The position numbers and the translations under genes are program-made. From Candidatus Poribacteria bacterium (GTDB lineage: Bacteria; Poribacteria; WGA-4E; WGA-3G), in assembly GCA_026706025.1 (NCBI GenBank), contig JAPOZO010000082.1:1-35565 (forward strand): a stretch of 35,565 nucleotides of DNA, read 5' to 3'. Shown here in pieces: positions 20,764 through 35,565 of the stretch. Within the stretch, counting starts at the first letter, position 1, and each line of letters starts with the position of its first letter. The notes under the pieces were generated by a model. The model did no database searches and had not been told where the DNA came from. It worked only from the letters and a program-made list of their open reading frames with translations.

Positions 20764-22752
20764 TTATTCTCCGCCCTCTATTGGCAGCACACCGGCTCCC
20801 ACGTCTCCTACTTTAATCGTAATCCGTGCCTCTTTAGACCCTGTTACGATAAACCCCTCAATAACGAGTTCAGTTTCTATGGGCTGTTCCGCAGAATTGT
20901 CAGGGAGTGGGAAGCCTTCCGGCAATGGGAGACCCTCTGGGAATGGAAAACCTTCTGGAATTGCTCCGTCATCTCCTTCACCTTCTTCGCCACTCTCTGG
21001 CAGCGGCAAATCTTCTGGTAATAGGAATCCACCGCCAAAAGCCGATGGTGTAAGGGTTATTGTAATTAACCCTGCATCCATCTGATCTTCTTCCTTCTGA
21101 CGGATGAGTTCGTCGAGGTTCCTTGGCAGCGGTTTTTCATCATCATCTTCTTCATCGTCGCCTAAGATATCATCGAAAATATCGCCGAAGAGTTGTGTAA
21201 ATTCAGTGTCGTCAGTCGATTCATCGGCGGCGGAAACCGTGAGGTTTGCTTCACCTATCGGAAAGCCGTCAGGGATGTCAAGTATAACATCTCTTTGCAT
21301 TATCCGCTTAGCACCGGCAGTACTCCAGTGCGGAAGTAGCACAACTGAAACTGTGAGGCTTTCCCCAGGCATCACTTCAGCAGGCACAATAATTTCGTCA
21401 ATTTCGGCTGTGGCAATTTGCGGTTTGTCCACGATAGCAATCGACACCGCTTTCAATGTTGCTTTGCCCGCGCTGTTCGTAAGTGTATCGGTGAACGCAT
21501 TAATAATTGAACCCGTCTTTATGAACACATCGAAAAATGGGTTTGAAGAGGCGGTCCGAAACTTTTCTGTATACACAGTTTCGGTCTCTTGAAAGTGAAG
21601 CGTTACAGTTCCTTCAACTGTTGCAGCATTCCGCTCCATCCGAATTGCGTCCATTGTGACCGCCGTGACATACGAAATCGCCCACTCTTGTCCATAAGCA
21701 ACAACGTGATGTTTCTCTATAGGCGTGTTGTTAACCGGATGATAGGAGACCTTCACAGGAATCATTGCCGGTCCTGGTCCGAGTTTCCCTACAATTGCAG
21801 GATGTAGGTCTTTAGTTATTGTCCCGATCGGATTTCCATACGCTGAGACAGATTTCGTTGGTGCCGCCAAGCTGGACCTGATTCCATGCGTTACAGCCCT
21901 ATATACCGGTAATGCAGACTTCCCATCTGCAAAGAATGGGTGACCAAAGGCTACAAATTTATCGTCATAAACCTGTGTCACCGTCCCATAACCAATGAGG
22001 CTCGTAACATCTCCTGTGGCTACGGCAGCACCAATCATATCCCCTGCAAAGAGTTTTGTTGTAGTGCCTGCAGGCGGGGCTGCAGGCGCGCCGCCGATAT
22101 CACCAAGCAATTCAACAAAATCGAATTTTGAGTTAGAGAGATGCAAAGAAAGTTCTTGAATTCTGTGGGGCTGAATCCCTGTCATTATCACAGGTGTTTT
22201 AACAGGCGCGTACAGAGCATTCATCGCCATTGCAGGTGCAGCGGGTGCCGCCTCTCCATTCAAAAACTCACCAAACGTTGGATGGTTTATGGCTGTCTCC
22301 ATATAATCAATCGGTGTGACCAAGAACCGATACGGCGGTTTACTATACCAGTATGCGAAAGCAAGCGCACCCATGACGCGGCCCGGGGGACCTACCGGAC
22401 TGCCTGACATTCCCCGGGCAACCTCTGCTGAGTCATCAATCAGCTCACATTCATAGACGGGTGATCCAAAAGGCCCGTCTTTAACTGCCCGAAATTGAGC
22501 CTGAAGACTGACTTTGCCTGTGCCTTCAAGCACGGTAATGATTTCCAGGGGTGTTTTGCTTGTTAGTTTCCCAGCTTCATCCGCATACATATTTTCCAGT
22601 ACAACATTTCCGACAAAGCGTGGGGCGTTAAGAACGGATGTTGAATCGTTGGTTATGGGATTTTCAGATTGTGTTTGCTCTTCATCAAGAGAACAGCTAA
22701 GTTGGTATAGCATCGCAATGGCGATGCTTGCGAAAACGAGAATACGCTTCAC
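20764..22752 (-). CDS. SpoIVB-like (peptidase S55) lipoprotein with Pro/Glu-rich tail
   Basis: A 662-residue lipoprotein. From the GTG at 22752 (GGAGG seven bases upstream) the signal is 'VKRILVFASIAIAMLYQLSC', lipobox Cys20. An N-terminal domain carries 'ELIDDSAEVARGMSGSPVG': 'GMSGSP' is the S55 (SpoIVB) signature with the presumed nucleophile Ser118 and a nearby acidic pair. The rest of the S55 region runs to about residue 320 ('FAFGHPFFADGKS'-type segment with His). A central region resembles Ig-like beta domains, then an acidic stretch and a tail with repeated 'PEGFPFPEGLPLPEGFPLP' units. SpoIVB cleaves membrane-bound regulators in Bacillus. The target here is unknown; its neighbour is a membrane-anchored sigma factor. 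The catalytic His was not assigned with certainty. Confidence 0.75.
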   Translation of the reverse strand: MKRILVFASIAIAMLYQLSCSLDEEQTQSENPITNDSTSVLNAPRFVGNVVLENMYADEAGKLTSKTPLEIITVLEGTGKVSLQAQFRAVKDGPFGSPVYECELIDDSAEVARGMSGSPVGPPGRVMGALAFAYWYSKPPYRFLVTPIDYMETAINHPTFGEFLNGEAAPAAPAMAMNALYAPVKTPVIMTGIQPHRIQELSLHLSNSKFDFVELLGDIGGAPAAPPAGTTTKLFAGDMIGAAVATGDVTSLIGYGTVTQVYDDKFVAFGHPFFADGKSALPVYRAVTHGIRSSLAAPTKSVSAYGNPIGTITKDLHPAIVGKLGPGPAMIPVKVSYHPVNNTPIEKHHVVAYGQEWAISYVTAVTMDAIRMERNAATVEGTVTLHFQETETVYTEKFRTASSNPFFDVFIKTGSIINAFTDTLTNSAGKATLKAVSIAIVDKPQIATAEIDEIIVPAEVMPGESLTVSVVLLPHWSTAGAKRIMQRDVILDIPDGFPIGEANLTVSAADESTDDTEFTQLFGDIFDDILGDDEEDDDEKPLPRNLDELIRQKEEDQMDAGLITITLTPSAFGGGFLLPEDLPLPESGEEGEGDDGAIPEGFPFPEGLPLPEGFPLPDNSAEQPIETELVIEGFIVTGSKEARITIKVGDVGAGVLPIEGGE

Positions 22753-22804
22753 TTTGATTCCTCCAAAGATAAAAGTTTTCTTATCGTACACGCTAAATTG
22801 ACCC

Positions 22805-23608
22805 CTATTGATGAAATTCGCCAGCCAGCCATCTTCGGAACACTTGAACGTCCGTAAAATCTTTGAGAATATATCCGATTAATACGGGGTCCTCAAGTGC
22901 AAGCCAAATGAGTGCATCATGCTCGCCGTGTTTATCAAAGAGTTCTGCAGCCAGCGCAGCATCCGCCTGCTCAATTTTTTGGATGTAAAGGTCGATTTCC
23001 ACGCTAAAGAAAATGAGATCTAACCCATTCAAAACATTATGCTCGTCGTCTACAAAATGCTTAAAGGCTATATTCATTCCCGGACCGTCGATCAATTTCT
23101 TCAATTCGTCTCGAAAAGTATCAGGATCTTCGCCATGGTATCCACGCGTCAGCACATGTCTGTAGTGTACAGCGAAAAGATGTGCATTCGCGGCATCTTC
23201 TTCGTCAGGCTTCTCAAGCGTCTGCTTCAAAAATGGCATGTATCGTGATGGATGAGCCGATGCGATTTCCCAGAACGCATCATAAGTCTGATATTGAGCT
23301 TCAATCGGATGGTTACGTCTGAGGAAGTCTAAATAGGTCTTGGACGTGGCGAACCTCTTGAGTTTTCTGAAGTCCCCATCCAAAATGTTAGTGGGATTTT
23401 CCTGCTTGAGTTGTTCAAACGTCTCCTCGGGGGTTGGCGGTCGTGCAATCGGCTCAATACGACTTCCTGTTTCAAGGTCTCCTTTTTCGGGCTTTACAAC
23501 GCTTGGGTCGGGACTGGATTGACACGCGAAAAATAGTGAGATCCCTAAAAAGAGACAGACTCCGAGTCGGTTGAAAAAACGCTGACATTGAAAGCATCGT
23601 ATGTTCAT
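22805..23608 (-). CDS. Predicted lipoprotein, paralogue A
   Basis: A 267-residue lipoprotein from the ATG at 23608 (GGAG about 8 bases upstream). The upstream frame stays open to 23695 only because it reads through a palindromic repeat. Signal 'CLFLGISLFFAC' gives the lipidated Cys. The mature protein is all-alpha looking, with 'PPTPEETFEQLKQENPTNIL', 'DFRKLKRFATSKTYLDFLRR', 'TYDAFWEIASAHPSRYM' and a C-terminal 'YILKDFTDVQVFRRWLAGEFH'. No known family was recognised. The next gene upstream (23713-24633) is a clear paralogue, so this pair is a tandem duplication downstream of the sigma-propeller gene. Confidence 0.75.
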   Translation of the reverse strand: MNIRCFQCQRFFNRLGVCLFLGISLFFACQSSPDPSVVKPEKGDLETGSRIEPIARPPTPEETFEQLKQENPTNILDGDFRKLKRFATSKTYLDFLRRNHPIEAQYQTYDAFWEIASAHPSRYMPFLKQTLEKPDEEDAANAHLFAVHYRHVLTRGYHGEDPDTFRDELKKLIDGPGMNIAFKHFVDDEHNVLNGLDLIFFSVEIDLYIQKIEQADAALAAELFDKHGEHDALIWLALEDPVLIGYILKDFTDVQVFRRWLAGEFHQ

Positions 23609-23634
23609 TATGTTCTCCGAGGGTAAGATGTATG

Positions 23635-23661
23635 GTAGGGGTTGGGTAACCCAACCCCTAC
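23635..23661. repeat. Perfect 27-bp palindrome
   Basis: Two 13-base arms (23635-23647, GTAGGGGTTGGGT, and 23649-23661) are perfect reverse complements around a single central base. It lies in the 104-base spacer between the two lipoprotein paralogues. The arms resemble the degenerate palindrome at 5315-5340 in the precorrin-2 dehydrogenase gene. No T-tract; a REP-like element. Confidence 0.75.
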
Positions 23662-23712
23662 TACCCGGAACACGTTGCCTGCAATATCGTAGCACTGCAG
23701 GCGGACGTGTCC

Positions 23713-24633
23713 CTATTTTTCGTTATCCTCATTTTGATTCCACCAGGCGACTTCATGGAATTCTCCATCAACCCATTTCCGGAACACCTGGACATCTGTA
23801 AAATCTTTGAGGACATATCCGAGATTCACCGGTTCTTGGAGCGCGACCCGTAAAAAGCCTTTTTGCGTGCCATGTTCAACAAAAAGGGCATGGATATTTT
23901 CCCGATCTTCCTCTTGCAGTTCATCGACCAGAATGCTGTGATAGACCAAAACTTTTATTAAAAGAAGAATATTACCAACAAAGCGTTGCTCTAACCAACT
24001 GTGCACAGGTTCATTCATCATCATTTCCAGCATAACTTCTTTTACTTCGACTGGCTCCTCGTGATATAGACGGACGTTTAGATTGCGCTCAAACAAAGCC
24101 ATATAATGAAGCACATCAACATCCTCCGCAGTCGGAGGAGGCAGGGGTGGCTTAAAATATTCGTTCAAAAATTCCAGGGACCGCTCCGTATCCACGGACG
24201 CTAACGCCCAAAACTCATCGAAATTCTGGAACTGATTTTCCTGTGGATAGGTACGTTTTAAGTAGTCTATATAAGTTTCTGACTCGATAACTTCTCGAAT
24301 CCTTGTGAAGTCGTCGTCTAAGACGTTGCCGGGAAATTCCGCACGCAACTCCGCCATCACCTCTGCAATTGTAGGGGGCCTTAGCATTGGTGCCATTGGC
24401 ACTGCCTCAAATTGTGGTGCGGATTCCATTTCTGCGGCGAACATATCTTTTTCTACAGCCGCCAGCACCGCTGCCACCATTTCTTCAGAGATTGGTTGCG
24501 TCATTGTTTCTGCTGGGGCTAACGCGTTGCGGTTTTCGGGTTCCGAACAGCCCCAAACAACTACAAATCCGAGAAATACACAAAACGTCAATAGATTGAA
24601 TAGACACTGATATCGTGATCGAAAGTAAAACAT
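23713..24633 (-). CDS. Predicted lipoprotein, paralogue B
   Basis: A 306-residue lipoprotein: signal 'LLTFCVFLGFVVVWGC' with lipobox Cys, GGAGG eight bases before the ATG at 24633. It is longer than paralogue A, with an extra N-terminal Ala/Met/Glu-rich linker, then the shared motifs 'RPPTIAEVMAELRAEFPGNVL', 'SETYIDYLKRTYP', 'NFDEFWALASVD' and 'LGYVLKDFTDVQVFRKWVDGEFH'. Function is unknown. About 120 bases upstream lies a copy of the promoter-like box that also precedes the sigma-propeller gene, and the leader contains a 12-bp inverted repeat. It is therefore a candidate target of the neighbouring sigma factor. Confidence 0.78.
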   Translation of the reverse strand: MFYFRSRYQCLFNLLTFCVFLGFVVVWGCSEPENRNALAPAETMTQPISEEMVAAVLAAVEKDMFAAEMESAPQFEAVPMAPMLRPPTIAEVMAELRAEFPGNVLDDDFTRIREVIESETYIDYLKRTYPQENQFQNFDEFWALASVDTERSLEFLNEYFKPPLPPPTAEDVDVLHYMALFERNLNVRLYHEEPVEVKEVMLEMMMNEPVHSWLEQRFVGNILLLIKVLVYHSILVDELQEEDRENIHALFVEHGTQKGFLRVALQEPVNLGYVLKDFTDVQVFRKWVDGEFHEVAWWNQNEDNEK

Positions 24634-24736: not shown

Positions 24737-24750
24737 TTATTTATCGCTTA

Positions 24751-24780
24751 ATGATACAATTTGAAGGGCAAAAAGGTGCA
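24751..24780 (-). promoter_or_regulatory. Putative ECF-type promoter box, copy A
   Basis: Minus strand TGCACC (24780-24775), 17 bases, GTATCAT (24757-24751). It sits in a 47-bp stretch that aligns without gaps to copies B (27928-27957) and C (29259-29288). All share an upstream T-tract and a downstream TTAA. It precedes the lipoprotein B gene by about 120 bases. Confidence 0.6.
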
Positions 24781-24845
24781 TAATGGAAAAAAAATTGAAT
24801 GAGATAAAAAATAAGCGGTTTTTGATGGGAGAATTGCTGGGAATA

Positions 24846-27800
24846 TCAATCGTTTTCTTCTTCAAGCGATGCGTGAAACATCCCGCTTCGTTTGGTAGCG
24901 ATATAAAGTCTATCACCATTGATAACAACGGAGATGACACTGTGTGGCACCTCTGGCAAGATTTGTTCCCATCTACCTCGATTATCCAATTGATAGACAC
25001 CCGCATTACCAGCCCCATAAATCGTCGTGTCAACGACAGCGATGCGATCTATAATAGTGCGGGTCCCGGTTTTATTAGTTATCACGCGCCAGTTATCGCC
25101 ATCCGCTGATGTTAAAACACCTACGTCCGTAGCGACATAAACCGTTGAACCGGCAAAAACTATCTCGTTGAAATGCTCAAATCGAAGCGGCAGCGTTGCG
25201 GTCAGATCTTTCCATGTGTTCCCGCTATCAAGTGATCGGAACAGATGACCGTCGCGTTTGCCGACGTAGACGGTTTCGCCTGAAACAGCGAGAATGAAGG
25301 GGTCGGTGCCATCATTTTTGGCAGGCGCGTCGATGTCTACCAGTCCAGCGACGAACCATTCAGATTCGCCGCGCCTCCACCGCAGGAGCCGCCCCTGATA
25401 CTCCGTATAGAATGCATCGCCGCTGACTGCAAACGCACGAGGAAACGATGTCTTCTGGCGAGTTGATTCTGGCAACGCATCCATTTTTTCAGGATTGTTC
25501 GCGGCGTTACCCGTTATATTTTCTTCGGCACCCCCCTGCCCTTCAGTTGCTGGCATTTCTATAGAGAGATTTTCGCTAAAAGTCGGGGTCCCTTGAACAA
25601 GCACCAGATCATTGCCACTTGCAGAGAGATGGAAAATGCAGGCGGTATCTTCGACACCTGGGATTGATGTGATGCCGTAAAGCACACCATCAGAAACTGT
25701 TAGCCTTGGAAGGAGCAGTAATCCCCGAGCGTTCATCAATTGTTTTTTCCATATCGATGTCAATTTATTAGGATCGAAGTGTAAGGTTTGCCACGACATT
25801 CCGCCGTCTGTAGATTTGGCGATATTCGTGCCGGTATTTCCGTAGAGGGCGTTTTTGAACGCGATGAGGTTAGATATTCTGGTCGCTATCATTCCTGTCA
25901 TAAAAGGCTGCCACGATTCGCCAGCATCGGTTGAGCGATTAAGTCCGAACATTCCCGCCGTGAATACAGTGTTTTCGTCCACGCCGACAGCGGGGAATAT
26001 ACTCAAAAATATTGAATTCATAATTGCAATCGAGCTCGGCTTCTGATCGGCACCTGACCATGTTTTTCCACCATCCATGGATCGGAGATGGAAACCGACG
26101 TATCCGATGACTAAAAGCGTTTTTCCAGCAGTGAGGACTTTAACACCGGGTGCCAGCCTTATAAAAGGTGATTCGATTTTAGGTGTTATATCCGTCCACG
26201 AATTTCCTAAATCTGTTGACTGGAAGAGTTCCCATAAACCTGAATTGTTGTCATTCTTAAGTTGTTCGGTAAGTTGCTCGCTGAACACGGCTCTATCTTC
26301 AGCATTCTTGGATTGAAACAGATCCGGGCCTGTCCCGACATAAAGGTTATTTCCGGAAACTGCCAAAGAATGGATAGCATTCGTGGTATTCAGTGGCAAT
26401 TTTTCTAAACCGTGTCTCGGCTTGATGCGGTAGAGTCCCTGATTTGTCCCGACAAACACTGTGTTTTCAAGCGTAGCCAAGGCAAAGATTTTTACCGCTG
26501 TAACTTCATCATTCAATAGGGTCCACTGCTTCCCTTTATCTTCAGATCGGAAGATTCCGTTATCCCTAAGTGCGAGGTAGAAGGCTTCATCGGTTATTGC
26601 TAATCCCATAGCGGCACCTTTTGGGCGTGTCCCAAGCGATGTCCACGTCTCTCCGCTATTGCTTGAACTAAACACTTCATCACCAGAGACAAGGTAGAGC
26701 GTGTCGTCTTTCTCAGCCATGGGTATCATGCCGTAGCCCCCAGAAGCGGTTGGAAGGTTAACAGCGGCTGCCGGACTAATGAACGTCCACGCAGGGGCAT
26801 CGGGTGTCAATCTATAGATACCGAGGTGTGAAGCGGCATAGATATTGTTCTCTGAGCTGGCGAATAAGCCGAACACTGGCCCGAAACCCGGTGCATTTGC
26901 GTGTTTCCACTGCCGGTTCAGCGTCGGGGGCACTTCCTTCTCTACCTGCACGGTCGGAACCGGCACAACCGGCTTTGAAATTTGTACACCGGTGCCGTTG
27001 TTCCTACCCGGGGTATCGAAAAGTCCGGCTTGGTTTCGCACATCTGGTTCCGCCTGCGTATCAAGGACAATGGACGCATCAATGATTTCAACAGTGGTTT
27101 CCGATTGGGCGTTCAAGTTGTAAGGTTTCTGGAAACGCGCGAGGTATTGAGACCCGACACCGAGCATTAGCAATATGAAGACGGCAGCTGTGCCAAAAGC
27201 CGCCCACGGTAGCAGCGGTTTCCCAACCTGAGGCGGTGTCGGTTTAATGTCGGCAACTTGCTGCATAATACGCTCAATGAAATTGGCGGGCATCTGGACG
27301 CTTCCGAGCGTTTCGCTAATCAGGTGCTCTTCGGCTTGTAAACGCTCCCGTGCCCGGCGAAGCCGACTTTTTATGGTGTTCACCGATACCCCTAAGAAAT
27401 TGCCAATCTCTTTCGTTGTCATTTCACCGAGATAGTGGAGTGTCACCACTGTGCGTTCACTCTCCGGCAGTGTTTCCAGAAGTTCTTTGACGATTTCGTA
27501 GCGATGTTCCACGGCTTCCGCCTCCCGTTGCTCCGATACGTAACGTTTATAAGAAGATCTCCCTACCTCTGCTACAGATGTGGCCTCCAGGGATTGCATC
27601 ACAGGTTTGTTGCTTTGATGCCACCGCTTGCAAAGGTTATTGGCAATAACATAAAGCCATCCAGCAAACTGACTCGGATTCCTCAGCGTCGCGAGGTTCT
27701 TGTATGCTTGGAGAAAGGCATCTTGGGCAATCTCTTCAGCGATGTGAAAATCGCCAACCTTCCGCCACGCAAGCGCGTGAACGCTCTTTTGGTACTTTCG

Positions 27801-27878
27801 CACCAAAGCACTAAATGCCGCTTCATCACCCGACAAAATTCTGTGAATCAGTTGAACATCGTTTTCCACCATCAGCAT
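24846..27878 (-). CDS. ECF sigma factor fused through one TM helix to a BNR-type beta-propeller
   Basis: A 1010-residue single polypeptide. Residues ~8-90 are sigma-70 region 2 ('AEEIAQDAFLQAYKNLATLR', 'FAGWLYVIANNLCKRW') and ~128-185 region 4 ('LPESERTVVTLHYLGEMTTK', HTH 'EIGNFLGVSVNTIKSRLRRA'). A linker (186-222) leads to a transmembrane helix at ~225-246 ('AAFGTAAVFILLMLGVG'). Residues ~325-1005 are a long extracytoplasmic propeller with repeated Ser/Asp-x-Gly-x-x-Trp blades ('NSGETWTSL', 'DKGKQWTLL', 'DLGNSWTDI', 'DGGKTWSGA', 'DAGESWQPF', 'DSGNTWKDL'). It looks like a sigma factor tethered to its own sensor. The ATG at 27878 or the better-spaced ATG at 27872 (GGGAG seven bases upstream) is the start. 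A TGCACC-type box lies ~50 bases upstream. No separate anti-sigma gene is visible. Confidence 0.9.
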   Translation of the reverse strand: MLMVENDVQLIHRILSGDEAAFSALVRKYQKSVHALAWRKVGDFHIAEEIAQDAFLQAYKNLATLRNPSQFAGWLYVIANNLCKRWHQSNKPVMQSLEATSVAEVGRSSYKRYVSEQREAEAVEHRYEIVKELLETLPESERTVVTLHYLGEMTTKEIGNFLGVSVNTIKSRLRRARERLQAEEHLISETLGSVQMPANFIERIMQQVADIKPTPPQVGKPLLPWAAFGTAAVFILLMLGVGSQYLARFQKPYNLNAQSETTVEIIDASIVLDTQAEPDVRNQAGLFDTPGRNNGTGVQISKPVVPVPTVQVEKEVPPTLNRQWKHANAPGFGPVFGLFASSENNIYAASHLGIYRLTPDAPAWTFISPAAAVNLPTASGGYGMIPMAEKDDTLYLVSGDEVFSSSNSGETWTSLGTRPKGAAMGLAITDEAFYLALRDNGIFRSEDKGKQWTLLNDEVTAVKIFALATLENTVFVGTNQGLYRIKPRHGLEKLPLNTTNAIHSLAVSGNNLYVGTGPDLFQSKNAEDRAVFSEQLTEQLKNDNNSGLWELFQSTDLGNSWTDITPKIESPFIRLAPGVKVLTAGKTLLVIGYVGFHLRSMDGGKTWSGADQKPSSIAIMNSIFLSIFPAVGVDENTVFTAGMFGLNRSTDAGESWQPFMTGMIATRISNLIAFKNALYGNTGTNIAKSTDGGMSWQTLHFDPNKLTSIWKKQLMNARGLLLLPRLTVSDGVLYGITSIPGVEDTACIFHLSASGNDLVLVQGTPTFSENLSIEMPATEGQGGAEENITGNAANNPEKMDALPESTRQKTSFPRAFAVSGDAFYTEYQGRLLRWRRGESEWFVAGLVDIDAPAKNDGTDPFILAVSGETVYVGKRDGHLFRSLDSGNTWKDLTATLPLRFEHFNEIVFAGSTVYVATDVGVLTSADGDNWRVITNKTGTRTIIDRIAVVDTTIYGAGNAGVYQLDNRGRWEQILPEVPHSVISVVINGDRLYIATKRSGMFHASLEEEND

Positions 27879-27927
27879 TCTCCCTGATTAAAGCATAAAC
27901 GTGATTGTGTTTACATTCAAAATGTTA

Positions 27928-27957
27928 ATGATACAATTTTAAGGCGGAAAGGGTGCA
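27928..27957 (-). promoter_or_regulatory. Putative ECF-type promoter box, copy B (sigma gene)
   Basis: Minus strand TGCACC (27957-27952), 17 bases, GTATCAT (27934-27928), followed by TTAA. The sigma-propeller ATG is about 50-56 bases further on. Upstream is a T7 tract, also conserved in copies A and C. Because one box precedes the sigma gene itself, autoregulation is plausible. Confidence 0.6.
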
Positions 27958-28053
27958 TGATTTGAAAAAAATTTGATACCGGAGAATTTGGGAAGATGCT
28001 GCCAAGATAAGTCGGACAGGATAGGATCTTTCGGAAGTGTTTTTTAAATGTAA

Positions 28054-28161
28054 GTAGGACTCACCTAATTTTTCCATGAGTCCTACGTATTCGGTACGGG
28101 TGTTTGTGGAAGTCCTATGTAGGCATAAGAACGGCTATTTTTTCACTTTCCCCCACTGCGT
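28054..28161. repeat. 3'-end direct repeat, copy 1 (with 10-bp hairpin)
   Basis: These 108 bases are about 94% identical (6 mismatches by eye) to 30834-30941. Each copy covers the last codons of a propeller gene and ~80 bases beyond the stop. In this copy GTAGGACTCA (28054-28063) and TGAGTCCTAC (28077-28086) form a perfect hairpin, a possible terminator without a T-tract. Confidence 0.85.
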
Positions 28162-29157
28162 TGATAATAAGTGTGGTTGGGGCGAAACTGGGAAGAAAGT
28201 CTCTGGGACCCACACAGGAGCGGTCGACAATCTGCGTGTTGCCTCAAGCGGTTGTTCTGCGTCTTCACCGTCAGTATTTATGACACTGATGACATTGTTT
28301 CGAAAAGCCTCATTGATTGGAATTGCTTGACCATGATTCAATACTGGCGGAACTACGAAAAGATAGGCAATCCATTCGCCATCGGGCGACCACGCTGGAT
28401 CCCTCACCGTCGCATTTGGACCCACTCTGGTTAACGTGCGGCGGTTATTTCCATCGGCATCAATGATGTGGATATTCACGCCTTCACCGCCTATATTCCC
28501 AGCAGCAAAAGCAATATGCTTTCCATCAGGTGACCAAGTGCATCCGGATATGTTTAGATCTTCTAACAGTTGCTTTGATCTTGCCCCATTAGCGTTCATT
28601 ACATAGAGGAAATGTCTTCCCGGAACGCCGCCTGGACGATGAGCTCCGCCTTGATAGGAATCATAGACGATCCACTGACTATCTGGTGACCAAGCGGGAT
28701 TTTGGTTGTCTCCACGTTTTGTCAACCGCTTTAAGTTTGAACCGTCTACATCAATTCTGTAGATATCCAGATCACCGGCTCGGTTAGACACAAACGCAAT
28801 CCATTTGCCATTGGGTGCCCACACAGGCGACAGGTCCCTCTCGGGATGATTTGTCAATTGGCGGGATGTCTTGCTTTCGACATCCATCACATAGATATCA
28901 ACACTCCTATCGTCTTTGGATTGATAGGCAAAAAAACGTCTGTCTGGCGACCAAGTCGGTGAACGCTTATTTCTGTCATCGGTTATGAGTTCCCTGAGAT
29001 TCTGTCCCGTGCTATCTACGAGATAGAGGTCAGGGCTTCGGATGTAGGAAGCAAAAGAGATTGTCCCGGTCCCATCTGCCTGGCTATTTCTAACAAGCAG
29101 GACATTACTTACCAGCAAGGTGACTCCTAACATCATATAAACAAAAGCGTGTTTCAT
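28135..29157 (-). CDS. Secreted TolB/PD40-type beta-propeller with C-terminal WG-K tag
   Basis: A 340-residue exported protein: signal peptide 'MKHAFVYMMLGVTLLVSNVLL...' then about six PD40 blades of the form 'SPTWSPDRRFFAYQS', 'SPVWAPNGKWIAFVSNR', 'NPAWSPDSQWIVYDS', 'GCTWSPDGKHIAFAAGN', 'DPAWSPDGEWIAYLF'. It resembles the TolB C-terminal propeller but has no TolB N-domain and no Pal neighbour, so a TolB function is not implied. It ends in 'PVSPQPHLLSTQWGKVKK', a tag shared with the next propellers. It is closest to the gene at 29482. GGAGG precedes the ATG at 29157; box C lies ~100 bases upstream, with the ACGTGAGTTTGA element between. Confidence 0.85.
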   Translation of the reverse strand: MKHAFVYMMLGVTLLVSNVLLVRNSQADGTGTISFASYIRSPDLYLVDSTGQNLRELITDDRNKRSPTWSPDRRFFAYQSKDDRSVDIYVMDVESKTSRQLTNHPERDLSPVWAPNGKWIAFVSNRAGDLDIYRIDVDGSNLKRLTKRGDNQNPAWSPDSQWIVYDSYQGGAHRPGGVPGRHFLYVMNANGARSKQLLEDLNISGCTWSPDGKHIAFAAGNIGGEGVNIHIIDADGNNRRTLTRVGPNATVRDPAWSPDGEWIAYLFVVPPVLNHGQAIPINEAFRNNVISVINTDGEDAEQPLEATRRLSTAPVWVPETFFPVSPQPHLLSTQWGKVKK

Positions 29158-29258
29158 TTTGACGAATTCCTCCTTGACTCATTTTCTTAACGTGAGTTTG
29201 AAAAAAGTTTAGCGTTTCCAATGATCAATTATCTTTAACGCAAGTTGCTACATTATTA

Positions 29259-29288
29259 AAGAGACAATTTTTAGGAGCAAAAGGTGCA
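29259..29288 (-). promoter_or_regulatory. Putative ECF-type promoter box, copy C
   Basis: Minus strand TGCACC (29288-29283), 17 bases, GTCTCTT (29265-29259), then TAA. Here the -10-like part is GTCTC rather than GTATC, close to common ECF -10 forms. It lies ~100 bases before the propeller ATG at 29157 and overlaps the 3' part of a gene relic. Confidence 0.55.
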
Positions 29289-29372
29289 TAATTTGAAAAA
29301 AATCGGATAATCGCTATCATCTAATAGAATCAATATACTCCATAATACTGTATAACGCAATGCGTGTCTCAT
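29271..29372 (-). pseudogene. Signal-peptide stub of a propeller paralogue
   Basis: From an ATG at 29372 the minus strand reads 'MRHALRYTVLWSILILLDD' before unrelated sequence and a stop at 29271. The first ~17 residues, and ~41 of 45 bases, match the signal-peptide start 'MKQALRYTVLWGMLILL' of the gene at 30501. The propeller part is missing and the stub runs into promoter box C. This is best read as the remnant of a deleted or recombined propeller gene. The rest of the 29158-29481 gap (324 bases) holds box C, the ACGTGAGTTTGA element and AT-rich sequence; I see no other gene there. Confidence 0.7.
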
Positions 29373-29481
29373 CTTAAGTATTCCGCTTTGTTCGGTTTCT
29401 TAAAAATGTACTAAACTCTGGATTATATTCTAAGGATTCTTGTATTGTCCAAACTCTACTAAAAACGTAAGCAATGAGAAC

Positions 29482-30501
29482 CTATTCCTTTTTAATTTCT
29501 CCCCACTGCGTCGTTAGCAACTGTGGTTGCGGAGAAACTGGGAAGAAACCGTCCGGCACCCACACAGGACTGGACGACAATCCCCTTGTTGCCTTAAGCT
29601 GTTGGGCGTCGTTCTGGCCTTCAGGACTTATAACACAGATAACATTATCACCACTCCAAAAGTCAATGCCTCGGATTCCGTGACCAAGATCCACATCCAA
29701 TACTGGCAAATTCTTGAAAAAATAGGCGATCCACTTGCCATCCGGCGACCACGACGGACTCCCTGCCCATGCGTTTGGACCCACTTCGGTTAAGGCACTG
29801 CGGTTGCGCCTATTGACATCAATGAGGCTGATATTTATGCCTTCCTTTTCTATATTCCCCGCAGCAAAAGCGATCTGTTTTCCATCGGGAGACCATGTAC
29901 AACCGGACATATTTAGGCCTTCTGTCAGTTGTCTCGTCCTTCTGCCATCGGCGGTCATTACAGAGAGAAATTGCCTTCCACGAATCCCCGCATCACGATT
30001 TCCTTCTTGATAGGAATTATACGCGATCCACTGACTATCTGGCGACCACGCTGGATTTTGGTTATCCCCACGTTTTGTCAATCGCATCAGATTTGAGCCA
30101 TCTACATCAATTTTGTAGATATGTAGATCCCCGGTTCGGTCAGATTCAAACGCAATCCATCTCCCATTCGGGGACCACGCAGGCGACAGGTCTCGGTCAG
30201 GGTGGTTGGTCAATTGACGGGATATTTTGTTTCTGACATCCATCACATAGATATCAGGATTCCCATCGTCGTTGGATTGATAGGCAAAAAAACGTCCATC
30301 CGGTGACCAAGTCGGTGAACCTTTATTTATGTGATCGGTCACAAGTCTCCGAAGATTCTGCCCTGTACTATCTACGAGATAGAGGTCAGGGCTCCGGGGG
30401 TTGGTGGAAAAAGAGAGTGTTCCGGTTCCAGCCGCTTGGACATTTCCAACCAATAGAATCAACATACCCCATAATACTGTATAACGCAATGCCTGTTTCA
30501 T
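29482..30501 (-). CDS. Secreted TolB/PD40-type beta-propeller with C-terminal WG-K tag
   Basis: A 339-residue exported protein from the ATG at 30501 (GGAGG ten bases upstream; the frame is open to 30726 but that part is repeat sequence). Signal peptide 'MKQALRYTVLWGMLILLVGNVQA' is followed by PD40 blades 'SPTWSPDGRFFAYQSN', 'SPAWSPNGRWIAFESDR', 'NPAWSPDSQWIAYNS', 'GCTWSPDGKQIAFAAGN', 'SPSWSPDGKWIAYFF', and a C-terminal tag 'PVSPQPQLLTTQWGEIKK'. It is a close paralogue of the gene at 28135-29157, including an almost identical region just upstream of the start (30502-30535 vs 29158-29191). No enzymatic motif was found. Probable role is surface or periplasmic binding, as for other PD40 propellers. 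Confidence 0.85.
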   Translation of the reverse strand: MKQALRYTVLWGMLILLVGNVQAAGTGTLSFSTNPRSPDLYLVDSTGQNLRRLVTDHINKGSPTWSPDGRFFAYQSNDDGNPDIYVMDVRNKISRQLTNHPDRDLSPAWSPNGRWIAFESDRTGDLHIYKIDVDGSNLMRLTKRGDNQNPAWSPDSQWIAYNSYQEGNRDAGIRGRQFLSVMTADGRRTRQLTEGLNMSGCTWSPDGKQIAFAAGNIEKEGINISLIDVNRRNRSALTEVGPNAWAGSPSWSPDGKWIAYFFKNLPVLDVDLGHGIRGIDFWSGDNVICVISPEGQNDAQQLKATRGLSSSPVWVPDGFFPVSPQPQLLTTQWGEIKKE

Positions 30502-30544
30502 TTTGACGAATTCCTCCTTGACCCATTTTCTTAAAAAAGTCCTG

Positions 30545-30689
30545 TAGGTTGGGTTGAACGGTGTTGAAAAGGTATATGTCCGTGTGCTAATACCCTCAAA
30601 TCCAACCTGCCGTTCTATACATCCAAAAACGCAGTGAAACCCAACTTGAGACCCGCAGGTGCCCGGAAACAGCAAAGGTGTTGGGTTTC
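30545..30689. repeat. GTTGGGTTTC-type interspersed repeat in the 30502-30914 gap
   Basis: The 413-base gap upstream of the gene at 30501 has no gene. It contains TAGGTTGGGTTGAACGG (30545-30561), CAAATCCAACCTGC, and an inverted pair GAAACCCAAC (30636-30645) / GTTGGGTTTC (30680-30689). This is a common type of bacterial interspersed repeat. I found no promoter box of the A-C type here, unlike upstream of the gene at 29157. Confidence 0.6.
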
Positions 30690-30833
30690 TCTCGTTTTTC
30701 TGTTTGACGTGGCATCTATGATGCAATCTGAGTGTTGTGTTACTTTTCAGGGTTTTGGGAGTATCCGTTCAACCTATAGGAAACACCCCGATGCTGAACG
30801 TATCAGTAGTTACAGAATCTACTATAAACGTCG

Positions 30834-30941
30834 GTAGGACTCACCTAATTTTTCCATGAGTTTTACGTATTGCGTACTGGTGTTTGTGGAAGTCTTATGT
30901 AGGCATAAGAACGGCTATTTTTTCACTTTCCCCCACTGCGT
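30834..30941. repeat. 3'-end direct repeat, copy 2
   Basis: Matches 28054-28161 with about 6 differences over 108 bases. It covers the last codons of the gene at 30915-31898 (including the tag) and the downstream non-coding part. The hairpin is retained with two changes (GTAGGACTCA / TGAGTTTTAC). Confidence 0.85.
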
Positions 30942-31898
30942 CGTTAGCAACTTCGGTTGTGGTGAGACGGGCAGCGCGAATTCTGGATCGAACCAGTCTC
31001 CCAAAAGATGGAAACCCGGTTCAGTAAGCTGCACGGGTTGTCCGCCAGCTACGTCAACTTTGAAGATTCTCGATTTTGCGCCTGCGCTCAGTTTTTCATA
31101 AAGGAGTACATCGCCATGAGGTGACCAGGTCGGCCTGATTGCGGCGAGTCCTTCTTCAGCGACAATCTGTTGGAGGTCTGTCCCGTCTGGGTTAACAGTA
31201 TAGACCGTTTCTGTCTCAACGAAGTCCTTGAGTGGTACGCGATGGAGCCAAGAAAACGCGAGTTTGTTGCTTATTGGGGACCATGCTATGCCTCCCATCC
31301 ATGAGGGACGTGCTTCGGGCGGAAAAACAAATTTTTGTTTACCTGTCTGAAGGTTGTGCATCACAATCCGCATACGCCTTGGCCCGCCGACAATAATTGC
31401 TAACTTTGTTCCATCTGGTGACCAATCAGCACTTCCACCGAACGCCACGCGCTCCTCTTTTTTCGTATCCATTGATGCAATATAGACGTGCCGTTCTCCT
31501 TTTTCAAGGGAGATATAAGTAATCCGTTTCCCATCTGGCGACCACTTTCCACCGGATCTACCCTTTGATTTACCGAATACGCGCCTGACATTTGAACCGT
31601 CTGCGTCCATCAGATACAGGTCCCAGCTCCGCGGAAATCGGTCGCGGTCTGAGGCAAACAGGATTTGTTCACCCGTTGGAGACCATGCGGGGCGTATATC
31701 ACTCGCTGGATGGTTCGTGAGGTTTACCCATTCTGTCCCGTCTATATTCATTAAATAGATGTCTCGATTCGCATCTCCAGAGGAGGTAAACACTATTTTT
31801 GGGGTGTCGGGTGCTTTTGCCCAGACATCACAAACGCTTGTGTATAATATGACCACACTTAGTATACATAAAACAGATAAACACTTATATCGCAGCAT
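30915..31898 (-). CDS. Secreted PD40-type beta-propeller with C-terminal WG-K tag
   Basis: A 327-residue exported protein with signal peptide 'MLRYKCLSVLCILSVVIL...' and about five PD40 blades: 'RPAWSPTGEQILFASDR', 'GGKWSPDGKRITYISL', 'SADWSPDGTKLAIIVGG', 'GIAWSPISNKLAFSWL', 'RPTWSPHGDVLLYEKL'. It ends 'PVSPQPKLLTTQWGKVKK'. It belongs to a second propeller subfamily with the genes at 31921 and 32942, marked by 'GTEWVNLTNHPASDIRPAW' and 'WFDPEFALPVSPQP'. Yet its 3' end and downstream DNA match the other subfamily (gene at 28135). GGAGG precedes the ATG at 31898 and it lies 22 bases after the stop of the next gene upstream, so it is in the same operon. Confidence 0.85.
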   Translation of the reverse strand: MLRYKCLSVLCILSVVILYTSVCDVWAKAPDTPKIVFTSSGDANRDIYLMNIDGTEWVNLTNHPASDIRPAWSPTGEQILFASDRDRFPRSWDLYLMDADGSNVRRVFGKSKGRSGGKWSPDGKRITYISLEKGERHVYIASMDTKKEERVAFGGSADWSPDGTKLAIIVGGPRRMRIVMHNLQTGKQKFVFPPEARPSWMGGIAWSPISNKLAFSWLHRVPLKDFVETETVYTVNPDGTDLQQIVAEEGLAAIRPTWSPHGDVLLYEKLSAGAKSRIFKVDVAGGQPVQLTEPGFHLLGDWFDPEFALPVSPQPKLLTTQWGKVKK

Positions 31899-32010
31899 AT
31901 ACGCCTCCGAAAGAACTACTTCAGTTTTCCTTCTTCACTTCTCCCCATACCGTTGTTAGCAGCTGCGGTTGTGGTGAAACAGGCAACGCATACGCTGGAT
32001 CAAACCAATC
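31811..32010. repeat. Junction direct repeat, copy 1
   Basis: This stretch spans the signal-peptide region of the 30915 gene, the intergenic spacer, and the C-terminal tag of the 31921 gene. It is nearly identical to 32844-33031, apart from a 12-base insertion in this copy (four extra signal-peptide residues). The coding cores on either side are much more diverged. Confidence 0.85.
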
Positions 32011-32919
32011 CGCATAAAAATTTCGACTGATGGCAGTCAGTTGTTTCGGCTTATCATTACCGAATATGTGTCTGAAGAGTTGTGTCTCCTCGAAATTTCC
32101 GAGAATAACTTTAACTTTTCGTTGATAAAGCAAGGCATTCCCTTGTGGGGACCACATTGGATTATCAGCACCGAAATCCTCTCTAACGACCACCTGTTTC
32201 AAACCTGTACCATCCGTATTAACGACATACACTGTTAGATCATCAAAGCCTTTAAAACGACACGCTTGGTTCTCAACGCACTCCACGCCAGCGAACGCAA
32301 GTTGTTTCCCATCCGGAGACCACTCGACATTGAGTATTACAAAGTGAAGTTCTGGAAGTAGCGGCTCCACCGTTCGCGTCTGTAAATTAACAATATGTGT
32401 TCTACTCGTCCGGACGATATTATCAAAGGCGATCTGTGTGCCATCCGGAGACCACGCAAGATTGACATAAAGCAGATCGTCTACAGTTGTCAACACCTCA
32501 ACATCTTTCCCATCTTTTGTAGCAATATTTAGCGTCCGTTGAAGTCCGTTGTGTACATAGGCAACCCGTTTCCCATCTGGAGACCAGATAGGGGCGACAC
32601 GGTGAGACTTTTCTTCAAATACACGCTTGATATCACTTCCATCGGGTTTCATTAGATATAGGTCGTGCTTGCCTTCTCGGTTTGACACAAAAAGGATGCG
32701 TTCACCTGTCGGTGACCAAGCAGGTTGAATATCATCTGCTGAGTGTTCGGTAAGGTTGATTTTGTTTTGTCCGTTAGTATCCATAATATAGACTTCACGA
32801 TTGCCATTTCGTAAGGTGGTAAACACAATTTTGGCGGTCTCAGGTGCTTTTGCCCAGACATCGCAAACGCTTACCACACTTAGTATACATAAAACAGATA
32901 AACACTTATATCGCAGCAT
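31921..32919 (-). CDS. Secreted PD40-type beta-propeller with C-terminal WG-K tag
   Basis: A 332-residue exported protein from the ATG at 32919 (CGGAGG five bases upstream; an in-frame GTG at 32925 falls inside the ribosome-binding site). Signal peptide 'MLRYKCLSVLCILSVVSVCDV' is near-identical to that of the 30915 gene. PD40 blades: 'QPAWSPTGERILFVSNR', 'APIWSPDGKRVAYVHN', 'NLAWSPDGTQIAFDNI', 'NVEWSPDGKQLAFAGV', 'NPMWSPQGNALLYQRK'. It ends 'PVSPQPQLLTTVWGEVKK'. Blade two to four differ strongly from the neighbours, for example a 'CVENQACRFKG' insertion. It lies between paralogues with ~20-base spacers, so it is part of the operon starting at or before 34784. Confidence 0.85.
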   Translation of the reverse strand: MLRYKCLSVLCILSVVSVCDVWAKAPETAKIVFTTLRNGNREVYIMDTNGQNKINLTEHSADDIQPAWSPTGERILFVSNREGKHDLYLMKPDGSDIKRVFEEKSHRVAPIWSPDGKRVAYVHNGLQRTLNIATKDGKDVEVLTTVDDLLYVNLAWSPDGTQIAFDNIVRTSRTHIVNLQTRTVEPLLPELHFVILNVEWSPDGKQLAFAGVECVENQACRFKGFDDLTVYVVNTDGTGLKQVVVREDFGADNPMWSPQGNALLYQRKVKVILGNFEETQLFRHIFGNDKPKQLTAISRNFYADWFDPAYALPVSPQPQLLTTVWGEVKKEN

Positions 32920-33031
32920 AGACACCTCCGAAAGAACTACTTCAGTTTCCCTTCTTCATTTCTCCCCATACCGTTGTTAGCAACTGTGGTTGTGGTGAAA
33001 CGGGTAACACATACGCCGGATCAAACCAATC
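32844..33031. repeat. Junction direct repeat, copy 2
   Basis: Matches 31811-32010 (12 bases shorter). It includes the signal peptide of the 31921 gene, the spacer, and the tag region of the 32942 gene. Confidence 0.85.
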
Positions 33032-33910
33032 GCCGCCATAATTCCAATGAATATGCGTTAGTTGCACTGGCTCCCCTCCAGCCAAAGCGATTTTGAAGAT
33101 TTGGGAACGATTGTTTTCAAGACGCTGGGAATAAAGCAGCATGTCCCCACTTGGGGACCACGCCGGCTCGTTTGCTCTCGGACCGGCTTCATCAACAATT
33201 TGCTCAATGCCTGTCCCATCACGATTCACAATATAGATTGTCTGACGCTCAACAAAACCGATAAATGGAAAGTGATTTAGCCAAGCAAAAGCAAGTTTAG
33301 CCCCGGAAGGCGACCATGCTGGATACCACATCCACTGGATCGCATCGTCAGGAAGCAGCGATTTTTGCCGCCGTGTGCGAAGATTGAAAAGCCAAATTCG
33401 GGTGTGCCCAGCCAGTCCGGTAAAAAACGCTATTTCGGTGCCATCGGGCGACCATGCGGGGTACCGACCAAGGATTATTCGTTCTTCATTTGTACCGTCT
33501 ATGTTAGCAATATAGATCCAACGCTCATCAAATTCAACACGTTCGTAAGCGATCCTTTTTCCATCAGGCGACCATGTTGGGTGTTCTCTGTGTGCGACCT
33601 TTCTGAAAACCCGCCTGACGTTTGCGCCATCCGGATCCATGAGGTATAAGTCGTGAACGCGAATTCGATCTGAGGCGAACAGGATTTGCTCGCCTGTGGG
33701 TGACCAGACCGGGAAAAAATCATCGGAAGGGGCGTGCGTCAAGTTCACCTGTTCACTTCCATCTGGATTCATGAGGTAGATTTCAGTGTTGCCATCACGA
33801 AAAGAACTAAACACTATTTTCGCTGTGGCCGGTGCCTCGCTAAAGACAGAACAAATATTTCCATATAACAACATCAGGCTGATAATAAAAAAAAATCGTA
33901 TGGACCTCAT
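32942..33910 (-). CDS. Secreted PD40-type beta-propeller with C-terminal WG-K tag
   Basis: A 322-residue exported protein. Signal peptide 'MRSIRFFFIISLMLLYGNICS' differs from those of its two downstream paralogues. PD40 blades: 'FPVWSPTGEQILFASDR', 'HPTWSPDGKRIAYERV', 'YPAWSPDGTEIAFFTG', 'YPAWSPSGAKLAFAWL', 'EPAWSPSGDMLLYSQR'. It ends 'PVSPQPQLLTTVWGEMKK'. Its tag-coding DNA and the spacer after it are near-identical to those of the 31921 gene. It lies 20 bases downstream of the concanavalin-like gene and is probably co-transcribed with it. Function is unknown; no TolB N-domain is present. Confidence 0.85.
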   Translation of the reverse strand: MRSIRFFFIISLMLLYGNICSVFSEAPATAKIVFSSFRDGNTEIYLMNPDGSEQVNLTHAPSDDFFPVWSPTGEQILFASDRIRVHDLYLMDPDGANVRRVFRKVAHREHPTWSPDGKRIAYERVEFDERWIYIANIDGTNEERIILGRYPAWSPDGTEIAFFTGLAGHTRIWLFNLRTRRQKSLLPDDAIQWMWYPAWSPSGAKLAFAWLNHFPFIGFVERQTIYIVNRDGTGIEQIVDEAGPRANEPAWSPSGDMLLYSQRLENNRSQIFKIALAGGEPVQLTHIHWNYGGDWFDPAYVLPVSPQPQLLTTVWGEMKKGN

Positions 33911-33929
33911 TACTATCTTCTTATTTTTT

Positions 33930-34784
33930 TCACTGCTCCGACTTGATTTGACCCCACGTCACTGTTAGTTTATCTTGGGGTTGGACCGACAAATTGCCGT
34001 GGTTTGGTACATCTTCGCCAGTAATCTTGAAATTGTCAAATCGAGCGGTATATCCCGCAAGGCCGAAACCGACACTACCAACATTAAGGTCCTCCTCCAA
34101 GAAAGCGAAGTTGTCAAAGAGACAAGTGAAAGATAGAACATCCTCTCCATTAACCGAGAGTGTAAACCGTTCTTGGTCAACACGCAGTTTTAAATGACTC
34201 CACTCCCTTGTTTTCAGAAAAGAGCGTGGTAAAACCGTTGTGCAATTCATACTTGCCCCCTCTTTCAAAATCTCTTCTTGGACCTCCTCTCTCGCGAGTC
34301 TGTTGAACACTTCATTTAATTCGGCAAGTTCCATCTTAAAAAATTTATCTATTCTGGCAAAGAAAAGCGGGAGTCCTATTATCTGTCCCATAGGCAAATT
34401 TAAAACAACACCCGAAACTATCGGTGAAGGTGTGTTCCAGAAGATATTCCCGATCGCAAAAATGACAGCGTATGTCTGATTAACTCTGGCGGCAATTACA
34501 ATGTGCCCGCGTCCGTGTCTGACAAGCGGCATGACATCTAATTCCACCTCATAATCGTGCCACGCTGCACCTTCTATCACCAGCATTCGGATTGCGTTAT
34601 CCTTACTTTCTGCTTGCAGCACACCATTGATACCCCGCCATTCGCCAGCAGGTGCATTCCGTTCGGTAACTTCTTCCCAATCTTTTAAGTTAAAGTTATC
34701 AAATGTCTCAAGGAACGTCCCAGCGGAGACAGGCAATGTCTGGAATAGGAGAATACCTCCAATCATCAAAATAGCAAATCTCAT
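33930..34784 (-). CDS. Secreted concanavalin-like (LamG/DUF1080-type) protein with C-terminal WG-K tag
   Basis: A 284-residue exported protein: signal peptide 'MRFAILMIGGILLFQTLPVSA', then a jelly-roll domain with 'GTFLETFDNFNLKDWEEV', 'WRGINGVLQAESKDN', 'WHDYEVELDVMPLVRHGRG', and, after a long helical insertion (~125-190), 'WSHLKLRVDQERFTLSVNGE' and 'SVGFGLAGYTARFDNFKITG'. These are typical of LamG/3-keto-disaccharide hydrolase-like sandwiches that bind or cleave glycans. No catalytic residues were identified. It ends 'SVQPQDKLTVTWGQIKSEQ', a version of the tag on the neighbouring propellers, although the fold is different. AGGAGG precedes the ATG. First gene of a probable four-gene operon (34784 to 30915). 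Confidence 0.82.
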   Translation of the reverse strand: MRFAILMIGGILLFQTLPVSAGTFLETFDNFNLKDWEEVTERNAPAGEWRGINGVLQAESKDNAIRMLVIEGAAWHDYEVELDVMPLVRHGRGHIVIAARVNQTYAVIFAIGNIFWNTPSPIVSGVVLNLPMGQIIGLPLFFARIDKFFKMELAELNEVFNRLAREEVQEEILKEGASMNCTTVLPRSFLKTREWSHLKLRVDQERFTLSVNGEDVLSFTCLFDNFAFLEEDLNVGSVGFGLAGYTARFDNFKITGEDVPNHGNLSVQPQDKLTVTWGQIKSEQ

Positions 34785-34804
34785 TCTATCCTCCTTAGCA
34801 GTTT

Positions 34805-34833
34805 AAAATACAAGAGATACGTGGAAATTGCAA
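34805..34833 (-). promoter_or_regulatory. Possible sigma-70 promoter of the tag-protein operon
   Basis: Minus strand TTGCAA (34833-34828), 17 bases, TATTTT (34810-34805), about 20 bases before the ATG at 34784. The match is only moderate. It could start the operon that runs through four tagged proteins. Confidence 0.4.
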
Positions 34834-34856
34834 TGAATTTCTTCGATATGCGGTAT

Positions 34857-35565
34857 CTACCTTGTGGCATTTTCTGCTTGCTTGAGTGCTCCCCATAACG
34901 TTATCTGCTTCTCTGCACTTGCGGATACAGAGAGAAGCTGTTTTGGCACCCACTGCAGAGATTGTTTTGGCAATCCTTTTGTTGCCTCAATCGGTTTCCC
35001 GCCCGCACCGTCTATCGTATTGACAACACTGACGACCCCGTTAGTCCTAATTTGATTTATTATCCCTGCCCCTCCTGCTTGGATCGGACCCACGATATAG
35101 GCGATCCATTTTCCACTCGGCGACCACACAGGATCCCAAATGAATACCGGTTGGTTCGACCACGTGAGTTGGCGCCGGTTTTTTCCGTTTATATCAATGC
35201 CAAAAACCTCCCAGCCCCCATTCGCAGCAGATGAGATAAAAGCAATCTGTTTGCCATCAGGTGACCATGAACAGTCAGAGAAGCGCGTAGACACTGTGAG
35301 TTCTCTCAACTGTCTACCGCCAGCATCCATCACGTAAAGAGCACTTTCTGAAGCAAAGGCAATCGATTGGCTGTCTGGCGACCAAGCGGGGCGGCGGCAG
35401 CCTTCTCGGTTCGTGAGTTGCCTCACGTTTTCACCATTTGCATCCATTCTATAGATATTCGCGCTCCCGGTACGGTCCGAGACGAAAGCGATCCATTTCC
35501 CATTCGGAGACCACGCAGGGCCCAAGTCCTTGTTACCATCAAAAGTCAACTGGCGGTGTGTATTT
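34857..35565 (-). CDS. PD40-type beta-propeller, N-terminus outside window
   Basis: The frame is open to the right edge (about 236 residues, 5' end missing). Visible PD40 blades: 'GPAWSPNGKWIAFVSDR', 'RPAWSPDSQSIAFASES', 'DCSWSPDGKQIAFISSA', 'DPVWSPSGKWIAYIVG'. It ends 'LLSVSASAEKQITLWGALKQ', a diverged version of the C-terminal tag. The TTG at 35549 is an internal codon, not the start: the frame continues 'NTHRQ' upstream. It resembles the 28135/29482 subfamily ('KPIEATKGLPKQSLQWVP'). Its stop lies 72 bases before the concanavalin-like gene. Confidence 0.82.
   Translation of the reverse strand, partial: NTHRQLTFDGNKDLGPAWSPNGKWIAFVSDRTGSANIYRMDANGENVRQLTNREGCRRPAWSPDSQSIAFASESALYVMDAGGRQLRELTVSTRFSDCSWSPDGKQIAFISSAANGGWEVFGIDINGKNRRQLTWSNQPVFIWDPVWSPSGKWIAYIVGPIQAGGAGIINQIRTNGVVSVVNTIDGAGGKPIEATKGLPKQSLQWVPKQLLSVSASAEKQITLWGALKQAENATR

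Follow-up and report, generated by a model that had tools for sequence, protein, structure and literature searches.

Candidatus Poribacteria is a sponge symbiont. Only a few single-chain ECF sigma factors that sense the cell exterior have been described. IutY of Pseudomonas putida (ECF243) is a sigma/anti-sigma hybrid that is released by Prc and then by RseP (PMC5411451). In Actinobacteria, members of ECF48, ECF52 and ECF53, such as SCO4117, have a C-terminal helix followed by an extracytoplasmic extension, which is carbohydrate-binding in SCO4117, and their activation is expected to occur by proteolysis (PMC8999054). ECF57 has a WD40-like C-terminal extension and two cysteines that are reported to connect sigma2 with sigma4 (PMC8999054). 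In the SigI/RsgI system of Clostridium thermocellum, each of several autoregulated sigma paralogs is linked across the membrane to a module that senses substrates outside the cell (PMC4711584), and RsgI is cleaved by RseP (PMC12203970). In a search of open-access papers, with subscription papers and preprints outside its reach, nothing was found on fusions of the kind described below in Poribacteria.

Domain layout and conservation of the fusion protein

The window, i.e., the whole analysed stretch of 35,565 nucleotides, encodes a protein in which ECF sigma regions 2 and 4 are followed in the same chain by a predicted membrane helix and a beta-propeller region:

24846..27878, minus strand: sigma-TM-beta-propeller fusion gene, an ORF of 1010 aa with its likely start at Met3 (27872)
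27321..27878, minus strand: ECF sigma regions 2 and 4, residues 1-186 (Pfam; dN/dS; residue-171 covariation)
27216..27320, minus strand: linker, residues 187-221, with a conserved segment (NFIERIMQQVADIKP here) and KP..PW ahead of the membrane helix (alignments; model helix 200-208)
27156..27215, minus strand: single membrane helix, residues 222-241 (hydropathy; AlphaFold2 helix; module of 38 paralogs; order/class relatives)
27084..27155, minus strand: juxtamembrane motif RFQxPYxxxAxSExTxEIID, residues 242-265 (conserved in alignment)
26904..27083, minus strand: stalk, residues 266-325, predicted to be disordered (pLDDT < 50 at 237-321)
24849..26903, minus strand: beta-propeller region, residues 326-1010, with eight Asp-boxes and a predicted GH74-like fold (Pfam, AlphaFold2, Foldseek, motif count)

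The likely start codon is preceded at 7 nt by GGGAG, and the plus strand contains many stops in the same frame. In Pfam searches, Sigma70_r2 (residues 25-90, 5.7e-13) and Sigma70_r4_2 (128-180, 3.1e-16) scored above cut-off, as did DUF6242 (1.9e-13) and Sortilin-Vps10 (6.9e-11) past residue 350. The presence of sigma2 and sigma4 and the absence of other sigma domains are those of an ECF factor, and the recognition helix of region 4.2 could be placed at residues ∼165-180 (NTIKSRLRRAR), with serine at position 171. Rfam gave no match. Hydropathy analysis identified one strong helix at ∼222-241 (Kyte-Doolittle mean of 2.04 at 223-241), and a weaker hydrophobic peak at 615-633 (1.72) is located inside the propeller. 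In the AlphaFold2 model, which was built from a 59-row alignment and has a mean pLDDT of 73, the sigma part is helical up to residue ∼191, further helices are found at 200-208 and 227-241, and the chain is all-beta from ∼325. The two sigma regions and the single membrane helix that had been read from the sequence in the first-pass annotation, which also asked for a full-length structure prediction, could thus be confirmed, and its estimate of ∼700 residues of BNR-like blades came close to the ∼685 measured here. In the juxtamembrane motif F249, Q250, P252, Y253, and E260 are invariant in the alignment. For the propeller part, the top Foldseek matches were GH74 enzymes, the fold of which is a tandem of seven-bladed propellers (E 3.4e-21, target TM 0.62, rmsd 7.7), and the HTCS periplasmic domains of BT4663/BT4673 were also matched, with low TM-scores of 0.2-0.3. 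An internal start that would yield a free propeller was rejected, as no Shine-Dalgarno-led ATG occurs at residues 180-340 and a lone GTG at residue 316 has a weak Shine-Dalgarno sequence.

The genome is a draft of 103 contigs, and a sequencing or assembly error that joined two genes, or a decaying fusion, was considered. No support was found for this explanation, the probability of which is negligible. Other genomes were searched for the same architecture, and full-length orthologs with 70-89% identity were identified in six other Poribacteria MAGs. The stop or frameshift at residues 190-330, which had been named as a possible sign of such an error, is present in none of them. Because of these orthologs an assembly artefact or a split gene is ruled out, and many paralogs within the genome likewise argue against it. 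Compared with the orthologs in L055, L058 and L059, dN/dS is 0.06-0.09 for the sigma part, 0.30-0.40 for the propeller and 0.23-0.35 overall. Both halves of the fusion, with values well below 1, are under purifying selection, and the propeller evolves faster than the sigma part.

A paralogous family with different C-terminal domains

The fusion is not a one-off but one of at least 56 paralogs in the genome, each of which scored >170 bits against the sigma part, while the next ECF factors remained <77 bits. This number is a minimum, because a 57th gene (C56:49879) is incomplete at the edge of the examined stretch. The sigma-helix module is common to 38 of the paralogs; with a laxer cut-off 39 are helix-bearing, as a protein of 237 residues that lacks a C-terminal domain is then included. 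The C-terminal parts of 23 members, two of them helix-less, cluster with BNR propellers, and WD40 (in few paralogs), TolB, LRR, thioredoxin, peptidase and further domains are found in others. That the propeller is of the BNR rather than the WD40 type had been considered noteworthy: the assignment holds for the window member, but BNR is the commonest class in the family and therefore no peculiarity. The module was found in all 35 congeners searched, with 8 to at least 42 matches each. At the same threshold, relatives within the order gave 0 to 7 matches, in which the sigma-helix-sensor layout is kept.

The window protein is predicted to have its sigma domain inside the cell, a single membrane pass and a sensor-like domain outside, based on hydropathy, the AlphaFold helix and a comparison with free homologs bearing signal peptides. 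For many helix-bearing fusions with non-BNR domains, the unfused homologs start with a signal peptide and similarity to the fusion starts just after it, which indicates that the C-terminal domains of such fusions are located outside the cytoplasm. For the BNR class the free homologs that were found are fragmentary and lack an informative N terminus, and the topology of the window protein itself is therefore an argument by family. The charges flanking the helix (mean K/R of 2.3 before and 1.8 after) are weakly informative and barely favor an N-in orientation. Overall the orientation of the fusion in the membrane is well supported by inference. The separation between helix-bearing and helix-less fusions is not clean, since the domains fused in the helix-less C99, C35, and C15_2139 are of kinds that bear signal peptides in their free homologs. 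In a sigma-WD40 fusion (L040:4618-7134; G000:C99:44617-47133, minus strand) the junction, judged by eye, resembles the stalk of the window protein and looks as though the helix had been lost.

Among the helix-less members, the same sigma domain is found in frame with DnaN, the sliding clamp of DNA polymerase, and no membrane helix is present (L031:14839-16569; G000:C60:134838-136568, minus strand). Full-length open frames of this fusion were present in 17 of 20 congeners searched, with 61-87% identity. At the seven loci that were read, an internal Shine-Dalgarno-like stretch (GGAGGTATTCRGATG in six of the seven) and an ATG precede the clamp, which might allow the clamp to be produced in free form as well. 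The gp55/gp45 pair of T4 offers an analogy for a sigma-clamp fusion. An AlphaFold model of sigma-DnaN from the single sequence was poor (pLDDT 35). In a further fusion (L031:5529-7070; G000:C60:125528-127069, minus strand) the sigma domain is in frame with SAICAR synthetase (PurC), and a free PurC that is ∼90% identical to the fused one is encoded elsewhere in the genome. The fused DnaN and PurC as sole copies of the genome were ruled out, as free copies exist. An ABC-2 permease gene is located downstream of 11 of 17 helix-less versus 1 of 39 helix-bearing sigma genes (own-genome loci L009-L048; Fisher 9e-7).

Candidate promoters and proposed mode of action

An EM search identified the pattern TTATGCAACCTTT-N13/14-CGTCAYTAA upstream of 42 of the 56 family genes. 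Because the matrix used for scoring was derived from the very genes to which it was applied, it carries a bias that leave-one-out scoring removes partly; scored in this way, 42 of 56 genes were above the 99% shuffle level and 40 above all 4000 shuffles. No recognisable promoter was found by motif scoring before the other 14. A strict form of the pattern gave 46 matches genome-wide versus 1 in the reversed control, and in 593 kb 75 versus 3 sites were counted. Where matches lie apart from sigma genes, many are found upstream of genes for ABC transporters, MoxR, STAS, sigma54-type AAA or exported proteins, as identified by eye. A predicted ECF-type -35/-10 promoter is also located upstream of the window gene itself:

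27924..27960, minus strand: predicted sigma-gene promoter, TCATGCACCCTTT-N14-TATCATTAAC (22.6 bits; present in all six orthologous loci)
24747..24783, minus strand: predicted promoter of the same type, TTATGCACCTTTT-N14-TATCATTAAG, before the next gene downstream (26.8 bits)
29257..29291, minus strand: predicted promoter of the same type, TTATGCACCTTTT-N12-TGTCTCTTTA, before gene 28135-29157 (27.9 bits)
23713..24633, minus strand: putative target gene for a predicted lipoprotein of 306 aa, with a paralog at 22805-23695
28135..29157, minus strand: putative target gene for a PD40/TolB-type propeller of 340 aa that has a signal-like segment at its N terminus (Pfam; promoter site upstream)

These three are the only sites >16 bits in the window, before the sigma gene and the flanking genes on both sides, and none was found in the reversed window. 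The lipoprotein gene had no Pfam match. In L055, L056, L057 and L081 the next gene is also preceded by a site of this kind, though that gene differs. The arrangement of the sites well supports the inference that the fusion turns on its own gene and the adjoining genes for exported proteins. Three genes downstream of the fusion (20764-22791, minus strand) a predicted lipoprotein with a GMSGSP motif gave a sub-threshold match to Peptidase_S55 (SpoIVB) with an E of 0.021. A series of PD40/TolB-type propeller genes and one 3-keto-disaccharide hydrolase-like gene occupy 28135-35549 on the minus strand.

Promoter and recognition helix appear to be matched within the family. In the 97 promoter-bearing sigma genes, scanned with the tested columns masked, serine at residue 171 occurred with CA in the gene's own -35 in 75 of 75 cases and asparagine with G in 15 of 16 (Fisher 1.6e-15). 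On the tree, residue 171 needs four changes and the promoter two, and the covariation stems for the most part from a single clade, to which one or two independent changes are added. Of the independent pairs, about 2 of 3 agree in direction and none is contrary, a number too small for significance. Variants of the -10 element compared with sigma residues gave a clade signal and no clean rule. That the sigma part has lost its function in transcription and is merely a cytoplasmic domain is highly improbable, given its dN/dS of 0.06-0.09 and the covariation of its recognition helix with its own promoter.

That an anti-sigma gene is missing nearby had been noted before, and indeed no anti-sigma Pfam match was obtained among the 20 window genes scanned. 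Eight zf-HC2 domains at seven loci were identified in the genome, all adjoining short conventional ECF genes and none beside the sigma-fusion family, and a hidden anti-sigma factor near the family was therefore rejected. By eye, the linker ahead of the helix resembles the zinc finger-to-helix segment of the genome's own anti-sigma factors, which is regarded as a lead. M50 proteases are encoded in the genome; to our knowledge they are near-universal.

The best-supported reading remains that of the first-pass annotation, a self-tethered sigma factor that links an extracytoplasmic propeller to transcription. The product is probably a single-chain signaling protein, in which a tethered ECF sigma factor and an outside propeller would drive, in a signal-dependent manner, the expression of its own gene and of neighbouring genes for exported proteins. 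The sigma factor would be held at the inner membrane by the single helix, with the tandem beta-propeller outside, and it is assumed that in the absence of a signal the tether keeps it from RNA polymerase or promoters. By analogy with GH74-fold proteins and HTCS propellers, the ligand might be a glycan or, as a further guess, a host or envelope macromolecule. After binding, cleavage might occur first in the stalk and then in the membrane helix, or the chain might rearrange, upon which the sigma domain would act and, by positive autoregulation, transcribe its own gene along with adjoining genes for exported proteins from TTATGCACCNTTT-N14-TATCATTAA promoters. Proteolytic release is plausible by analogy with IutY (PMC5411451) and RsgI (PMC12203970). 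An intramembrane cut would fall past residue 222 and not at 186-225, where cleavage had been suggested, because the helix begins at ∼222.

The sigma domain could instead work while bound to the membrane, like ToxR/CadC-type regulators, with the propeller altering its conformation or clustering. The conserved linker between sigma domain and membrane would be in line with this, as would the lack of a locus-linked protease apart from the weak S55-like motif below cut-off; however, IutY, the best-studied single-chain ECF factor, is released by proteolysis (PMC5411451), and the 60-80-residue stalk by the helix, predicted to be disordered, would suit site-1 trimming. Activity without cleavage is considered unlikely. 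Somewhat less likely still is that the propeller is cargo and not a sensor, so that the sigma-helix module would be an auto-inducing cassette for expression and anchoring that replaces signal peptides and yields autoregulated, membrane-anchored effectors. The module indeed occupies the place of the signal peptide of free homologs with many unrelated domains, and the propeller evolves faster than the sigma part, but the strong conservation of the juxtamembrane motif speaks against this reading and the shared promoters before neighbouring genes suggest control beyond self-expression.

Beyond the tethered signaling protein favored for this locus, it is tentatively proposed, at somewhat less than even confidence, that in Poribacteria one ECF sigma lineage became a modular sensor platform. 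Its sigma-helix cassette would have taken over a large variety of unrelated proteins destined for export, in each case at the position of the signal peptide. Every copy would recognise the promoter of its own gene along with a small regulon nearby, and specificity would diversify via matched changes in recognition helix and -35. In a soluble branch the same sigma domain would be joined to proteins of the cytoplasm. One of these is the sliding clamp DnaN, in a fusion that is conserved across the genus and through which transcription might be coupled to replication. In one genome at least 56 paralogs are encoded, of which ∼38 are predicted to span the membrane, and both the sensor and promoter recognition vary naturally among them. 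This opens two questions to direct tests, namely how sigma factors that are paralogous remain insulated from one another and how one-piece membrane sigma factors switch without an anti-sigma factor. Sensor and promoter, being separable parts, might also find use as membrane-sensing switches.

Comparison with described systems

Like IutY, the window protein combines in one chain a cytosolic ECF sigma factor, a membrane pass and a part predicted to be periplasmic (PMC5411451). IutY, however, has a CSS anti-sigma domain and a TonB-dependent receptor as partner, whereas the window protein, in which Pfam identified no CSS/FecR-like or other anti-sigma domain, has a putative tandem propeller and belongs to a family of at least 56 copies. 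With ECF48, ECF52 and ECF53 it shares the membrane helix followed by a predicted extracytoplasmic extension, but their extension has a zinc finger and no zf-HC2 match was obtained by Pfam for the window protein. The combination of an ECF sigma factor with a propeller-type extension is shared with ECF57; the propeller of the window member is of the BNR/Asp-box type and not WD40, and the cysteine pair between sigma2 and sigma4 is missing, as cysteines occur at positions 83 and 747 only. Several sigma paralogs, probable autoregulation and a putative sensing module across the membrane are reminiscent of SigI/RsgI, where, in contrast, the sigma factor and its anti-sigma are encoded as two proteins and sigma-I does not belong to the ECF factors. 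The Bacteroides hybrid two-component sensors BT4663/BT4673 likewise have an outside propeller and an inside regulatory output in one chain, but that output is a kinase/response-regulator chain and not a sigma factor.

Single-chain membrane sigma factors as such are thus already known (IutY, ECF52/53, ECF57; PMC8999054). New compared with these are the putative tandem propeller, the lack of a recognisable anti-sigma domain, the scale of the expansion and the covariation of promoter and recognition helix, together with the ECF-type promoter shared by 42 of 56 genes, the three sites in the window and the occurrence of zf-HC2 genes beside conventional ECF genes and not beside this family.
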